Shown here: one piece after another, positions 34,980-41,508 of the stretch
Layout of the letters: every line of letters begins with the position of its first letter
How positions within the stretch are numbered: the stretch's first letter is position 1
DNA from: Alphaproteobacteria bacterium
GTDB lineage: Bacteria > Pseudomonadota > Alphaproteobacteria > DSM-16000 > Inquilinaceae
NCBI GenBank assembly: GCA_028281925.1
Contig: JANQIX010000104.1
Location: forward strand, 62,001-126,000
Direction of reading: 5' to 3'
DNA length: 64,000 nt
Made by a program: the position numbers and the translations under genes
The notes under the pieces: generated by a model
Seen by the model: only the letters and a program-made list of their open reading frames with translations
The model's database searches: none
Told to the model about the DNA's origin: nothing

Positions 34980-37900
34980 TCAGGTCAGACTGTCGAAGAC
35001 GTCCTGGGCCTCTACGATGTCCGCCGTCTCCGGATCGCTCGCCACGCGGGACAGTGCATCTTCAAGCAGTGCCCGCGCGGCGGCTTCGTCCCCGCTGCGC
35101 AGCCTGGACCTAGCCAGCGATACACTGGCACGCAGATACAGCATCAGTGTTCCGTGGCTGAGCGCGGTCTCCCGCGCAATGTTGAAGCAGCGCTCCGCCT
35201 CGCTCCGGAACCGGCCTCCCTTCGCCGTCAGCAGCGATCCCTTCAGGCGCAAGAGTTCCGGATCGAAATAGGCCGGGCGTCCTCCGCGCCCTGGTGAAAG
35301 CGCCTGATTGACTGTCTCCAGTGCCTCCTCAAGACGGCCGGAGGCGGCGTATGACTCCGCGATCCAAGCCTCCGCACACGGGCGCGCCAACCCGGCACCT
35401 GTTGCAAGATAGCCCTCAAGACCCTTCTTCAGCCGGTCAATGCCACGTCGGTCACCCTTACGGTCCGCCGCGCGCCCAAGCTGCATCTCGGCCTGGGCGG
35501 CCCATTGCGCGAAGCTCTGCTGGCGCGCGATCCCGCATGCCGCCGACGCATGGCGTTCGGCAGCTTCGACATCGCGCAGGAACAGGCACATATTGGCGGC
35601 GAAAACCTGGGCAAAGGCCAGGCTGAAACCGTGATCCGCCTTCTTCGCCATGTTCAGGGCGCGCCGGCTCGCCGCCAACGCTGTACCGGCATTCCCTGTC
35701 AGAGCATGAAGCCACGAGAGATAGGATAGAGCCGCCGTGGCGAGGCTGACCCCAAACAGCACCAGATGGTCTTCCTGCTGATCGGGCGTGAACAGATCAA
35801 CGGCCTGCCGGAAATTCTTCTGCGCCTCGCCAAAGTCGCCGCTGTAGAAAAAACACACACCAAGTGTGTATTTGGCAGCCGCATGCGCGACCGGATCACC
35901 CGAATTTCCAGCTAGCGACAAGAACCGCTCAGACAGCTCGACGGCGATATCGAGGTTGGCACGTACCGTGTAGAAGCTCCACAACCCCCACAAGACATGG
36001 ATCGGCTCCCCGATCCGCGTCGTCTGCGAGGACAGCCACCGGGCGCGTGCGTAAATCGCCTCCACCTCGCTCGACGCGAAGCCGTGACTCGCCAAGAGCT
36101 GAGGTCCCAACAACAGCAGAAACCGCAGTTCTCGTTCGCTGCGCCGATCTTCCTCCGGGATCAGTTCAACCAGCGCCAGCGCCCTGCGGAAATGGCTGAT
36201 CGCCTCCTTGTGCGCGGAAACGCCGATCGCCTGCCTGCCTGCCACCTCCAGGAACTCGATCGCCTTCGACAGGTTGCCGCCTTCCGTGAAATGGTAGGCG
36301 ATCACCTCAGGCTGTGCGGCGATCTCGGCGCGAACCTGCTGCTCCAGCACCGACGCGATCCGACGGTGATGGGCAACACGCTGTTGCTTCAGGATCGAGC
36401 GGTAGGTGAATTCCTGCACCAACGCGTGCTTGAACTCGTACTGCACCTCGGGAACGCGCCCGATCCGGAAGATAAGGTCAGCCTCCTGAAGCTGCTTCAG
36501 GGCATCGTGCAGCGCCTGGGGCTCGGCACTGGCGACGGAACTCAGCTCGGTGAAGCTGAACCTCCGTCCGAAGACCGAAGCGATCTCAAGCACGCGGCGC
36601 GCCAAGCCAAGCCGATCGATGCGGGCCATCAAGGACGCTTGCAGGATATGCGGGATCTGCTCCGACGCCGCTGGATGCCGACCGGCCGGCTCGCCCGAGC
36701 CGGCCCCCAACGCCGGTTCCGCAAGCGGTTTGGCCAGCTCTTCCAGATACAGAGGGACGCCGTCGGCGCGCTCGACGATGCGCGCCATCCGGTCTAAGGA
36801 CAGTCCGCTCAGTTGCAGATCGGCAAGCATGCTGTTCGCCTCGGCATCCGTCAGCCGGCGAAGGGCGACAACGGTTCCCGCTCCCTCGTCGAGCCAGCCC
36901 GGCGGATCGCCCGGTCGGCGACTGATGATCATCATCACCCGATGGCGCGGGAGTATCTTCAGCAGCCTGCCCAAGAACTCACCAGTGGTCGGGTCGATCC
37001 AATGCACATCTTCAACAATCAGAAGAAGATGCTCCTTCTCGCACAGATTGATTACATGATCGACCAGTGCGTCGAGGATCTTTTCCTTCTGTTCCTGAGC
37101 GCTCAATCTTGTTCTGGGGTATCGATGACCACAGGACAATGCCAGTATCTTGCATAAGTATCGTGCAACTTCCTCCGTACTCAGCTTGTTTTCGCGAAGC
37201 CAGCGCTCAAGCCTGTCCACCTTTCTGTCGTCGGAGTCGGTCGCGGCGAAGCCCATGACGGACTTCAGGTACTGAACGATTGGGTAGAGTACGCTGCTCT
37301 GATGATGGGGAGAGCAATCGAGCTGCAGCAAGCTTGGGCCATTCGCCGCAATGCGTCCGCAGAATGTGTGGATCAGTCTGGACTTGCCGATACCGGGCTC
37401 GCCGAGGATCGTGACGTATCGCCCCGCCCCGATCGAGAGCGTCTTCCAGTGTTCAAGCATCTGCGCAAGCTCACGGTCGCGTCCAATCAGTCTGGTGAGA
37501 TGCGCTCCGAAGTGGCGCGCATCGAAGCGACTGCGGACCAGCTTCTCTCCGACGACGCTGTAGAGCTGAGCGTAAAGGGCGGACCGCCCCCCGTCGACCA
37601 CTCCGCCGATCGGCCGTGTCTCGAAGGCTGACTGGACGAGCGCATTGGTGGACGCCGCAATAATGACGGCGCCGCGATCAGCCTGCTGCTCGAGTTCTGT
37701 GGCGGCGAACAGGGCGTTGCCAGCGATCTGCGCCTCAAGGGGCCGGTCTGCGGAGGCTGCCGTTACGATCACTTCGCCGCTGGCAATCCCGCAACGCGCA
37801 ACGAGATCGGCGACGGTGTCGAGCCTGCCTACCGCTTGAACGGCCCTGACACCGGCGAGGACAGCCCGCTCCGGATCATGTTCCTGCGCCCTTGGATAGC

Positions 37901-39032
37901 CGAAGCCGATGATCAGACGGTCGGCGACGACATGGAAGCGGTACCCGCCATGCTCCCGGGCGATCGCAGCGCAGCAGGTACGGAACGCCTCCAGTGCGAC
38001 CGTGAGGTCTTCCGGATCGAGTTCGCCGCTCAACTCCGCCGCGTTGGCAAGACCGAGTGAGAGAACCGTCATCTCCCTGCGCTCTGCGACGCCGTCGTAG
38101 GCGGCGGGATCCGAGACCCCGGCAGTTGGCGATGGGCTGGGATTCGGCGTCCACCCGGAGTCGCCGACTGACGGTTCCCCAACGCCTCCCGGATAGCCGG
38201 CCGCCCCACCTGGTTCGAAGGCGCCATGTCCTCCGCCGGGAACCCCATGCGCCGCCATGCCAGCCGCGTCACCGCTGAACATCCGGCCCGGCACCGACTC
38301 CTTGCGAATCTGCTCCGCAAGCATGACGGTCTCCACGGAGGGGGACGCATCGAGCTCGCGTTTCATGATCTCTCGGCAGCGGTTGAATTGCTGCAGCGCT
38401 TCCCCGCGACGTCCGGTGCGCGTGTAGAGGCGCATCATGGCCAGATGCGTACTCTCATGGGTGGGCTCAAGCACTAGCACACGCTTCGCGGTCTCGATTG
38501 CGCGACCCAAATCGTCCTTCGCCTCATAGTGGTTCAAAAGCACAAGCAGTGTCGCGAGCGCGGCATCGTGATGCTTCTGGCGTTCCCACCACACCCATTC
38601 CTCGAAAGGCTCCGACCGGACCAGTAGCCCCTTCAGAAATGGGCCTTGATAACCATCCACTGCCGTTTGCAGGCTTTCGACATCGCTTCGTGAGCTCAGA
38701 TCCCAGAATCTGGCCGTGTCGACATCAATTTCTGTGTCTGAAAACTGTATCTTGTCGCGACTGGCTTGGATCGGATCGAGGCCTGCGTTCGAAAACACTT
38801 TCCGCAACGTAGCCAATTCCTGACGCAAACTTGCACGCGACTGTTCTTCACCACTGCGCGACCAAAGCAAGGTCGCGACATCATCCCGCGCGAGGGAGCG
38901 GCCGGCCGATTGCGCCAGATAGGCCAGCAGACCCCAACACTTACGCGTGGGGAGTGAGAGCACCATACCCGTGGTCGTGACAATTTCGTAACCGCCAAGA
39001 AACCTCAGTTCGGCTCGCGTCACGTGCTTCAC
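34980..39032 (-). CDS. Large SARP-type regulator: wHTH-BTAD, degenerate cyclase-like domain, AAA ATPase, TPR
   Basis: A 1350-residue cytosolic regulator. A winged-helix DNA-binding domain (about 7-97) and a BTAD (about 100-245) give the SARP/AfsR front end. A Gly/Pro-rich linker (about 250-312) follows. Next is a class III cyclase-like domain (about 318-495) in which the first metal Asp is missing (VLSLGLANA where FCDLVGST is usual; Gly 327), while the second Asp is kept (VVADRLIIGFG, Asp 371). An ATPase follows with Walker A GEPGIGKS (544-551) and Walker B LLLIVEDVHWID (669-680). TPR-like helices fill about 950-1340. Start is GTG 39032. It is divergent from the transglutaminase-like/histidine decarboxylase operon and is its likely activator. 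Confidence 0.9.
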   Translation of the reverse strand: MKHVTRAELRFLGGYEIVTTTGMVLSLPTRKCWGLLAYLAQSAGRSLARDDVATLLWSRSGEEQSRASLRQELATLRKVFSNAGLDPIQASRDKIQFSDTEIDVDTARFWDLSSRSDVESLQTAVDGYQGPFLKGLLVRSEPFEEWVWWERQKHHDAALATLLVLLNHYEAKDDLGRAIETAKRVLVLEPTHESTHLAMMRLYTRTGRRGEALQQFNRCREIMKRELDASPSVETVMLAEQIRKESVPGRMFSGDAAGMAAHGVPGGGHGAFEPGGAAGYPGGVGEPSVGDSGWTPNPSPSPTAGVSDPAAYDGVAERREMTVLSLGLANAAELSGELDPEDLTVALEAFRTCCAAIAREHGGYRFHVVADRLIIGFGYPRAQEHDPERAVLAGVRAVQAVGRLDTVADLVARCGIASGEVIVTAASADRPLEAQIAGNALFAATELEQQADRGAVIIAASTNALVQSAFETRPIGGVVDGGRSALYAQLYSVVGEKLVRSRFDARHFGAHLTRLIGRDRELAQMLEHWKTLSIGAGRYVTILGEPGIGKSRLIHTFCGRIAANGPSLLQLDCSPHHQSSVLYPIVQYLKSVMGFAATDSDDRKVDRLERWLRENKLSTEEVARYLCKILALSCGHRYPRTRLSAQEQKEKILDALVDHVINLCEKEHLLLIVEDVHWIDPTTGEFLGRLLKILPRHRVMMIISRRPGDPPGWLDEGAGTVVALRRLTDAEANSMLADLQLSGLSLDRMARIVERADGVPLYLEELAKPLAEPALGAGSGEPAGRHPAASEQIPHILQASLMARIDRLGLARRVLEIASVFGRRFSFTELSSVASAEPQALHDALKQLQEADLIFRIGRVPEVQYEFKHALVQEFTYRSILKQQRVAHHRRIASVLEQQVRAEIAAQPEVIAYHFTEGGNLSKAIEFLEVAGRQAIGVSAHKEAISHFRRALALVELIPEEDRRSERELRFLLLLGPQLLASHGFASSEVEAIYARARWLSSQTTRIGEPIHVLWGLWSFYTVRANLDIAVELSERFLSLAGNSGDPVAHAAAKYTLGVCFFYSGDFGEAQKNFRQAVDLFTPDQQEDHLVLFGVSLATAALSYLSWLHALTGNAGTALAASRRALNMAKKADHGFSLAFAQVFAANMCLFLRDVEAAERHASAACGIARQQSFAQWAAQAEMQLGRAADRKGDRRGIDRLKKGLEGYLATGAGLARPCAEAWIAESYAASGRLEEALETVNQALSPGRGGRPAYFDPELLRLKGSLLTAKGGRFRSEAERCFNIARETALSHGTLMLYLRASVSLARSRLRSGDEAAARALLEDALSRVASDPETADIVEAQDVFDSLT

Positions 39033-39100
39033 TCGCTATATGCAAAGTCCGAGGCTGGGAGCCCGATCAAGGGATGTTCCGCACGGCATGGCAAGTCGAA

Positions 39101-39133
39101 TTTGCACATCATTTGCGGTAATTTTGCACGGCA
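39101..39133 (+). promoter_or_regulatory. Three direct repeats at 11-bp spacing (probable SARP binding sites)
   Basis: TTTGCACATCA (39101), TTTGCGGTAAT (39112) and TTTGCACGGCA (39123) lie head to tail with no gap. The TTTGC cores repeat every 11 bp, one DNA turn, the arrangement bound by SARP/AfsR proteins in actinomycetes. The region separates the regulator gene from the divergent operon. Repeats are seen directly; the binding protein is inferred. Confidence 0.65.
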
Positions 39134-39145
39134 ATGTGATCGCCA

Positions 39146-39178
39146 CTTCAGGATGTGGACAACAGGCCGCACCTGAAG
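39146..39178 (+). promoter_or_regulatory. Hairpin in the leader of the transglutaminase-like gene
   Basis: Outer arms CTTCAGG (39146-39152) and CCTGAAG (39172-39178), inner arms TGTGG and CCGCA, one bulged A, 8-nt loop. It lies 25 nt before the ribosome site of the gene starting at 39214. Could affect mRNA stability or initiation. Confidence 0.5.
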
Positions 39179-39213
39179 CTTGGTTGTCGCCTCGCAAACG
39201 TCGGAGAATGCAT

Positions 39214-40578
39214 ATGCCGGATCGGCAGGAAGACGCCGCCGAAGCAAAGAGCGCCGCCCATGGGACGGGATTGAGCGTCAGCGGTATCACCTTGGACGGC
39301 AGTGACCAGCACTACCACGACATCGTGAAGCATCTGGCAGTGCCTGCGGAACGGCAGGACACGCCGGTCTTCCGTAATGGCTCACGGACCGAAATCGCAG
39401 CGCTCGAGCACCCCACGCTGATCGAGATCGTGGATGCCATGACGCAATCCAGCACGCCGATTCGATTCGACCGGCTGGAGGATGCACAACTCGACTTCCG
39501 GCTCCGGCTCCACGCCATCGACGCCATGACCAATTTCAATACCGGCAAATGGGATGCCGACTATTACAACGAAGATGCCGACATCAGGCCGCAGATCGGC
39601 AACACCGTCAGCCCAGGCAACGCGAAGGGCGAAGGCGCCACTCCGACCCCATCTGCCGGTCGGCACGGCGGCATCTACTGGCAATTCATGGATCCGTCCG
39701 ACCCCTGGGATGCCGAGTGGCAGCAGATTAAGGGCACCCACCCGGCGGAGGGTCTTGAGCCCACCTACGGCCATCTTCTGCCGTTTCGTGGCGAATGTGC
39801 CGGAGCGTTCCAGCTAGCCGTCTATCTCGGGATCCTGAAGGGCCTGGGCAGAGAGTATCTGGAGCGAGTTCAGGACACCTACGGCCTCTTCTATGTCGGC
39901 CCCTGGCGGATCGACGGTCAGCTCAACCCGGCTGCGGAATTCATGCTGCCCGCCAGCCTTGAGGATCCGCCGATTCCCGGCGACTATATGTACTTCAAGA
40001 ACAAGGATGATTACCTGAAATGGGCCCCGAACGGATTCTGGGTCGGTCTCAACGCCATCTATGTCGGCAAAGACGACCTGGGCATGCGGCACTATTCGGG
40101 GCTCGGCGCATCCTGGCTCAGCGAGGTCAATCTGCGCAGTCAGGTGGTGAATGCCTATTACCATGACTGCTACCCGCACACGATCAAGGACCCACAGAAA
40201 GAGTGCCGGTTCACCGAACGCCGCCTGCTGGCACCACCGCCGAAGATGACGACACGACAAACTCAGTCCGCGCCCCAGGCCCGAGCGACACTCACAGAGC
40301 CGACGCGCGATCAGTTGCGGGCCGCCGGCTTTGAGGAGCCGGAAGATGGGGTGTTCGTGCACGCCGGCATCTCCATGGGGCAACTCGGTCAGGCGCTCGG
40401 CATCGATGCTCGCCATCTGGCGCAGGTGCGCAGCACAGGGCTGGCCAAACCCCAGTACCGCGTCCGCCTGGGCAACCTCGCCTGCATCGTGGAAAGGCAC
40501 GAAAGCGCGGAAGCACTGCTGGGCGATGCCAGCACGGTGAGCGTCTCGATCAACTTCGGCCGGCCGATCAGCTCCTGA
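39214..40578 (+). CDS. Transglutaminase-like protein (Bacillus Tgl family) with extra C-terminal domain
   Basis: A 454-residue protein. Residues about 79-300 align by eye with B. subtilis Tgl, protein-glutamine gamma-glutamyltransferase: TPIRFDRLEDAQLDFRLRL, then the active-site FRGECAGAFQLAVYLG (Glu194-Cys195), IPGDYMYFKNKDD, and GLNAIYVGKDDLGMRHYSGLG (His293). The position of Tgl Glu187 holds Leu279, but the Glu before the Cys, said to be a redundant partner in Tgl, is kept. A Ser/Thr/Pro linker (about 340-362) leads to a roughly 90-residue C-terminal domain I do not know. ATG 39214 has GGAGA 6 nt upstream. No signal peptide. 72 nt before the histidine decarboxylase gene. Confidence 0.72.
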   Translation: MPDRQEDAAEAKSAAHGTGLSVSGITLDGSDQHYHDIVKHLAVPAERQDTPVFRNGSRTEIAALEHPTLIEIVDAMTQSSTPIRFDRLEDAQLDFRLRLHAIDAMTNFNTGKWDADYYNEDADIRPQIGNTVSPGNAKGEGATPTPSAGRHGGIYWQFMDPSDPWDAEWQQIKGTHPAEGLEPTYGHLLPFRGECAGAFQLAVYLGILKGLGREYLERVQDTYGLFYVGPWRIDGQLNPAAEFMLPASLEDPPIPGDYMYFKNKDDYLKWAPNGFWVGLNAIYVGKDDLGMRHYSGLGASWLSEVNLRSQVVNAYYHDCYPHTIKDPQKECRFTERRLLAPPPKMTTRQTQSAPQARATLTEPTRDQLRAAGFEEPEDGVFVHAGISMGQLGQALGIDARHLAQVRSTGLAKPQYRVRLGNLACIVERHESAEALLGDASTVSVSINFGRPISS

Positions 40579-40608
40579 TCCACGACCGCCGTCAGCCCTG
40601 TCCCTAGA

Positions 40609-40630
40609 GCCGGCCGATCAGTCGGCCGGC
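40609..40630 (+). promoter_or_regulatory. Hairpin between the transglutaminase-like and histidine decarboxylase genes
   Basis: Perfect 9-bp arms GCCGGCCGA (40609-40617) and TCGGCCGGC (40622-40630) with a 4-nt loop. The AGGAGAAG ribosome site of the decarboxylase gene begins right after it, and no T-run follows. A processing or stability element that sets the ratio of the two products is likely. Confidence 0.6.
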
Positions 40631-40650
40631 ATCAGGAGAAGACGTTCGCC

Positions 40651-41508
40651 ATGGATTTAAAAGATGTCGTGAACGGCGCCATCGGCCCCTTCCCCGACAA
40701 TTGCGCCGGCTATATGAACCCGCCCAGCCAGGGCATCGGCTACATCGCCGCGCTGAAGCTGTCGCTCGGCACGGTCGTCGCCGATATGGACGACGGGCTG
40801 GAGGGCATCGTTTCGTACGACCGTGCCGAGGCCGCCGATGCCTATATCGGCCAGATCAACATGCTGACCGCATCGTCGTTCTGCGGCTTGAACGGCGCAG
40901 TATGGGGCTATGACCTGGCCCGGGCCGACGGACTGCGCAACGGCAATGTGCAGCCCAAGATGATGCTCGACCGGCATGACGGGGCAAAGGTGCCGATCTG
41001 GTCGATGATGCCGCTGCTCGATGCGGGTTATCGGTTATTCGGATCGCGCGAGCAGCGGCGGTTCAACCCGCTTCCCGGGGCCATGGTCGTCTGCGCCAAC
41101 AAGTCGTGGACGATAAACCCGAAGACGGAAACGGTGATCTGGTGCGCGCTGGCGCTCGCCATTCCGGAAGACCGCAACGTTGCGGCCAACCTGTTCATCG
41201 AAGATGGCTCCGACACCGAGAGCACGGGGCTTAAGCCGCTGATCAACCTCGAACGCAACATCGCGAAGTCGATCCTGCGCTGCGGTCAGGACCAGGGCGT
41301 CCGCTATAAGGAGATCTTCGTCGAGAGCAAGATGCTGCCGATCAGCCATGGCACGGTCGGCTGCGCGCTGGCCTGCGTTCCCTATGTCACGCTGCCGAAC
41401 GCGGCCATCCCGCCCGGCAAGCCGCCGTCATCCCTGATCGACATGACCATCGGCGAATGGGAAGAGGCGCTGGGGCTGCCGCCGCTGCCTCCGTATCCAG
41501 CCGGGTAA
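40651..41508 (+). CDS. hdcA: Pyruvoyl-dependent histidine decarboxylase proenzyme
   Basis: A 285-residue proenzyme of the pyruvoyl histidine decarboxylase family, which converts histidine to histamine and CO2. The self-cleavage site is MLTASSFCGLNGAVWGYDLA: cleavage is expected between Ser75 and Ser76, giving a beta chain (1-75) and an alpha chain with N-terminal pyruvoyl group. VSYDRAEAADAYIGQIN keeps Tyr56 and Asp57, matching the substrate-binding Tyr62-Asp63 of Lactobacillus 30a. LFIEDG (Glu184) fits the catalytic Glu197 region. RRF-NPLPGA and ANKSW also match. ATG 40651 follows AGGAGAAG. No pyridoxal-phosphate site. Known mainly in Gram-positive bacteria, so its presence here suggests transfer. 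Confidence 0.88.
   Translation: MDLKDVVNGAIGPFPDNCAGYMNPPSQGIGYIAALKLSLGTVVADMDDGLEGIVSYDRAEAADAYIGQINMLTASSFCGLNGAVWGYDLARADGLRNGNVQPKMMLDRHDGAKVPIWSMMPLLDAGYRLFGSREQRRFNPLPGAMVVCANKSWTINPKTETVIWCALALAIPEDRNVAANLFIEDGSDTESTGLKPLINLERNIAKSILRCGQDQGVRYKEIFVESKMLPISHGTVGCALACVPYVTLPNAAIPPGKPPSSLIDMTIGEWEEALGLPPLPPYPAG

Follow-up and report, generated by a model that had tools for sequence, protein, structure and literature searches.

Three direct repeats at 11-bp spacing form the very probable operator of a divergently encoded SARP-LAL-type regulator in an alphaproteobacterium

In the window, by which we mean the whole 64-kb stretch of DNA analysed here, an intergenic region of 175 bp separates a long regulator gene from a divergent operon encoding two enzymes, and three short direct repeats locate within it. 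The features are as follows.

34980..39032, minus strand: regulator of 1350 aa, the proposed binder of the repeats (domain matches and AfsR alignment)
39088..39138, no strand: 51-bp block, a putative extended operator, identical in the sister species
39101..39107, plus strand: repeat 1 (TTTGCAC), kept in the sister species only
39112..39118, plus strand: repeat 2 (TTTGCGG), kept in the sister species, Salipiger and Roseibium
39123..39129, plus strand: repeat 3 (TTTGCAC), which reads TTTGCGC in Salipiger and TTTACGC in Roseibium at the same 11-bp step
39208..40578, plus strand: transglutaminase-family gene (PF20085, domain match), the candidate target
40651..41508, plus strand: pyruvoyl-type histidine decarboxylase (PF02329, domain match), the second gene of the divergent operon

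The genome carries the alphaproteobacterial tmRNA RF01849 (276 bits), which among 14 control genomes occurs in Caulobacter alone, and thus belongs to an alphaproteobacterium.

The regulator consists of an OmpR-type winged helix, a BTAD domain, a weak cyclase-like region, AAA_16 and TPR, in this order. The BTAD match is strong (PF03704, 62.8 bits against a cut-off of 22.1) and the AAA_16 and TPR matches lie well above their cut-offs, while the winged helix (PF00486, Trans_reg_C) scores 21.8 bits, under the cut-off of 26.2. Guanylate_cyc reaches 21.0 bits, slightly under its cut-off of 21.9, so the cyclase-like region may have degenerated into a purely sensory domain, which has been reported for PimR. 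The C-terminal three quarters of the protein resemble the TOMM kinase/cyclase model at a score under the cut-off of that model.

The N-terminal winged helix followed by BTAD is the arrangement of a SARP-type regulator. A profile of this domain matches AfsR (8hvr, 8k60, 8jke) over about 225 residues with E values of 2e-11 to 4e-10, and also matches EmbR. The first ~250 residues align with the AfsR SARP domain along its length, which bears out an earlier reading of the sequence alone that had assigned a SARP-type front end to the divergent gene. Mapping the residues described for AfsR (PMC10936776) onto the alignment by eye, we find that the backbone contacts W74, Q81, R87, R94 and K95 correspond to W57, Q64, R70, R77 and K78. 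The base readers T88 and R92 of AfsR correspond to Q71 and T75, and this difference fits a different heptamer.

On the other side of the intergenic region, Cys197 and His295 of the transglutaminase show no variation across eight homologues, and the histidine decarboxylase retains a TASSFCG stretch. The pairing of the two enzymes (39208-41508) is conserved in Roseibium and Salipiger, and several Roseibium/Stappia genomes retain the transglutaminase and lack the adjacent decarboxylase. Together the two enzymes could conceivably yield a product such as glutamine-linked histamine. We found no literature on this enzyme pair among open-access papers.

The repeat site at 39101-39133 reads TTTGCACATCA TTTGCGGTAAT TTTGCACGGCA directly from the window, with TTTGC occurring three times at exact 11-bp steps over 39101-39127. 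When up to two mismatches are allowed, the pattern TTTGC-N6-TTTGC-N6-TTTGC matches the window at this site only (expected 0.08), and the site is its sole exact match in the 6.3-Mb genome. Dinucleotide shuffling of the 175-bp intergenic region gave the triple in 0 of 5000 cases. As a guard against picking a pattern after the fact, we counted any 5-mer present three times at any equal spacing from 6 to 33 bp, which appeared in 0.2% of 2000 shuffles of the same region. The exact phasing proposed by the sequence-only reading is thereby confirmed. Based on the alignment with relatives, the unit is better written as ATTTGCA/ATTTGCG/TTTTGCA followed by 4 bp; on the regulator strand the repeats read YGCAAAT, a polarity common to most relatives. 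A scan of viral contigs with TTTGCGGTANTTTTGC gave 72 matches, which were counted without context and from which we draw no inference.

The site thus displays the heptameric direct repeats at 11 or 22 bp that characterize SARP operators. This agrees with the proposed match between regulator class and site geometry, but the spacing is not specific to SARPs: PHO boxes are also 11-bp repeats, so that spacing alone marks an OmpR-type winged helix. In SARP operators, the 3′ repeat further lies some 8 bp away from a −10 element, a rule to which PimR is an exception (PMC3367932, PMC5930380). Across 38950-39300 we see no sigma-70-like promoter on either side of the site, only weak hexamers.

A sister species, two Roseibium genomes and a Salipiger plasmid have the same layout of three genes. 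In the sister species, 51 consecutive bases over the repeats (39088-39138) are unchanged and the flanks vary; since the proteins are 94% identical, this block by itself is weak evidence. The sister record (L003) is titled as an Anaerolineae bacterium MAG, yet its locus has that protein identity to an alphaproteobacterial genome, and it looks as if the title is wrong or the contig mis-binned. The Salipiger intergenic region carries TTTGCGGTAGTTTTGC where the window carries TTTGCGGTAATTTTGC, and only 1 of 1000 shuffled pairs aligned equally well (the common stretch is TTTGCGGTARTTTTGC). In Roseibium, the pair TTTGCGTATTTTTTAC is spaced exactly 11 bp apart, and its distance to the regulator start is the same as in the window; as a bare local alignment, the match is within chance (393 of 1000 shuffles). 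Beyond the genus, repeats 2 and 3 are therefore conserved at the 11-bp step and repeat 1 is not. The repeats thus withstand the check proposed with the sequence-only reading, which was to look for 11-bp repeats in orthologous intergenic regions.

Five Roseibium/Stappia loci (L006-L010) encode a shorter regulator homologue of about 1020 aa, which has AAA_16; its gene is located upstream of the transglutaminase gene and shares its strand. In the two of these loci that were examined, the homologue has no BTAD or winged-helix match. In all five, TTTGC pairs at 11 bp are lacking and motif scores are low. Truly independent orthologous loci are few. The 385 sampled genomes of the class contain no additional transglutaminase orthologue, and a wider search of the Roseibium family gave no new full-layout locus among those followed up. 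The pyruvoyl decarboxylase loci of Methylocystis and Rhizobium have neither the transglutaminase nor the regulator in the stretch shown. Searches of viral contigs gave no transglutaminase and only distant homologues of the decarboxylase.

We also notice a second conserved block with 11-bp phasing, TATGCGATTTCTTTGCGAAGAKTTTGC, in both sister species (L230:1500-1540, at G000:C61:113736, and L231). It is apparently intergenic and upstream of a 162-aa ORF, and is possibly a second target or the site of another regulator.

At the level of the class, we collected the regions upstream of winged-helix/BTAD genes from the 385 sampled genomes and the loci described here, delimited by mechanically chosen start codons; clustering at 55% protein identity reduced them to 45. 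An exact hexamer repeat at spacing 11 occurs in 17 of the 45. The other spacings from 7 to 33 give a mean of 3.2 and a maximum of 7, and dinucleotide shuffles give 2.6 (SD 1.65) of 45 at spacing 11. Removing the clade of the window leaves 15 of 42 against 3.0. The first 250 coding bases of the same genes and the segment from −600 to −350 show no excess at spacing 11, and such a repeat is found in only 2 of 94 ordinary genes drawn from these genomes (Fisher p = 4e-8). These data show that winged-helix/BTAD genes of Alphaproteobacteria are commonly preceded by direct repeats at 11 bp. We found no description of BTAD operators from this class in open-access papers, an absence that is weak evidence.

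A two-copy motif trained without the window clade has a log-likelihood of 123 at spacing 11, against 31-64 at five other spacings. Its unit is TTTTCACG, or CGTGAAAA on the regulator strand (CGTGAAA-like), in which conservation of the C (0.96) and the A (0.90) equals that of the T-run. This clade-free motif has its best site at the repeat pair, in the expected orientation, in each of the three held-out loci. In the leave-one-out version, 21 of the 45 regions reach p < 0.01 against 285 control stretches; Salipiger has p = 0.007, no control equals Roseibium (0/285), and the window has p = 0.067, its site ranking 12th by motif score within the 64 kb. The site of the window, a divergent form of the class motif, scores modestly because its TTTGCR differs from TTTCACG. 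The case for it therefore rests on its own repeats and orthologues, with the class pattern as support, and not on the motif score. The sequence-only reading had called this a strong operator prediction outside actinomycetes; conservation and the class-wide test sustain the prediction, while the p value of 0.067 counts against it.

Taken together, the evidence makes it very probable that the divergently encoded SARP-LAL-type regulator has its cognate operator in these repeats, through which the intergenic promoters would be controlled. One winged helix would bind each 11-bp unit, made up of 7 read bases and 4 more, and two or three protomers would thereby line up head to tail along one face of the DNA. 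Binding is expected to be cooperative on adjacent 11-bp units and to need at least two of them, as for PimR; three are present here. The AAA/TPR part would presumably gate DNA binding on a signal. The regulator may control its own promoter, the divergent transglutaminase/histidine-decarboxylase operon or both, and control of both promoters from one operator is quite possible. Binding itself is a prediction, as are activation rather than repression, the choice of promoter and the existence of a signal.

The most serious alternative, which comes a little short of being probable, is that the operator mainly serves the regulator's own promoter, with the divergent operon under its indirect control or under none. 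The AfsR units (CGTTYATCG) and the PimR units (CGGCAAG) read toward the activated gene, and of the 22 significant sites, 20 have the CGTGAAA-like unit pointing toward the regulator gene, although the equivalence of reading direction across these motifs is itself inferred. An excess of −10-like hexamers in the class upstream set is confined to the regulator side (p = 0.006 vs 0.46 on the other), with no such signal toward the divergent gene. Roseibium has a TATAAT 24 bp past the site, and the equal distance from site to regulator start in Roseibium and the window points the same way. The −10 signal is modest, however, and missing in the window, and PimR, whose site is similarly placed, acts on the divergent gene. 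Judged against AfsR and PimR, the repeats read toward the regulator, so autoregulation and control of the operon are about equally likely. The assignment of the site to a target operon, as first proposed, is not established, and repeat polarity and the only −10-like signal point to the promoter of the regulator. Autoregulation refines the cognate-operator explanation and does not exclude it.

Binding of the repeats by another member of the OmpR family, for instance a response regulator of the PhoB type, is very unlikely. PHO boxes do consist of two 11-nt direct repeat units, but the pattern here tracks BTAD genes over many genera; loci with the shorter regulator homologues lack it, and it is very rare in front of control genes. 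Runs of T in helical phase can bend DNA, and the repeats might be phased T-tracts that curve it, or a promoter upstream element, with no specific binder. We regard this as highly improbable, since the C and A of the class motif are conserved to the same degree as its T-run and control promoters do not have the pattern. That the repeats arose by chance and persist merely through the closeness of the sister species, whose conserved block does allow such a reading, is scarcely credible in view of the class-wide test and of the match in Salipiger, which is independent.

Returning to the cognate operator, a broader scenario can be drawn that is plausible while falling somewhat below an even chance. 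Alphaproteobacterial SARPs would be widespread, with an ancestral 11-bp-spaced CGTNAAA operator facing their own gene, many of them autoregulated and their operators readable from sequence, and the window regulator would be a diverged member coupled to histamine/transglutaminase production. To our knowledge, SARPs have been studied almost only in actinomycetes, as switches of antibiotic genes. If the class-wide pattern holds, the sites of dozens of uncharacterised alphaproteobacterial BTAD regulators would become directly predictable. The locus also offers a candidate control point for an unstudied pair of enzymes.

The HilA box is an 11-bp direct repeat read by a proteobacterial relative. The PHO box of PhoB/PhoP (PMC4415409) likewise has two 11-nt head-to-tail units, with 7 conserved bases plus 4, read by an OmpR-type winged helix. 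PhoB/PhoP differ from the window system in being two-component response regulators without BTAD, in the sequence of the site and in having a global regulon.

AfsR and its afs box (PMC10936776) are closer: the SARP domain is homologous, each of two 11-bp direct repeats takes one protomer, and ATPase and TPR modules follow the SARP domain. In contrast to the window, AfsR reads bases with T88 and R92 rather than Q71 and T75, its afs box overlaps the −35 region while no promoter could be placed at the window site, and no cyclase-like region is described for it.

The closest known system is PimR, a SARP-LAL regulator of Streptomyces natalensis, with its pimM-pimR operator (PMC3367932, PMC5930380). 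In PimR, the SARP domain is followed by a guanylate-cyclase-like/LAL half that has an AAA domain and lacks the cyclase signature, and three heptameric direct repeats with 4-bp spacers (TGGCAAGaaagCGGCAGGtgttCGGCAAG) lie between divergent genes, of which two are the minimum for binding. Compared with PimR by description, the window regulator has the SARP-LAL build, with SARP, cyclase-like, AAA and TPR parts and a gene divergent from its target. The target of PimR is a second regulator, whereas here it would be an enzyme operon in an alphaproteobacterial host, and the PimR units are reported on the coding strand of pimM, whereas the similar-looking strand here runs toward the regulator. The window units are ATTTGCR (YGCAAAT the other way) and do not have the CGGCAAG heptamer of PimR. 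Because SARP heptamers are reported to vary between regulators (PMC3367932, PMC5930380), this limits membership in the PimR operator group and not among SARP operators. The system is best described, by this comparison, as apparently SARP-LAL-like in build and working, outside actinomycetes and with an operator heptamer of its own.
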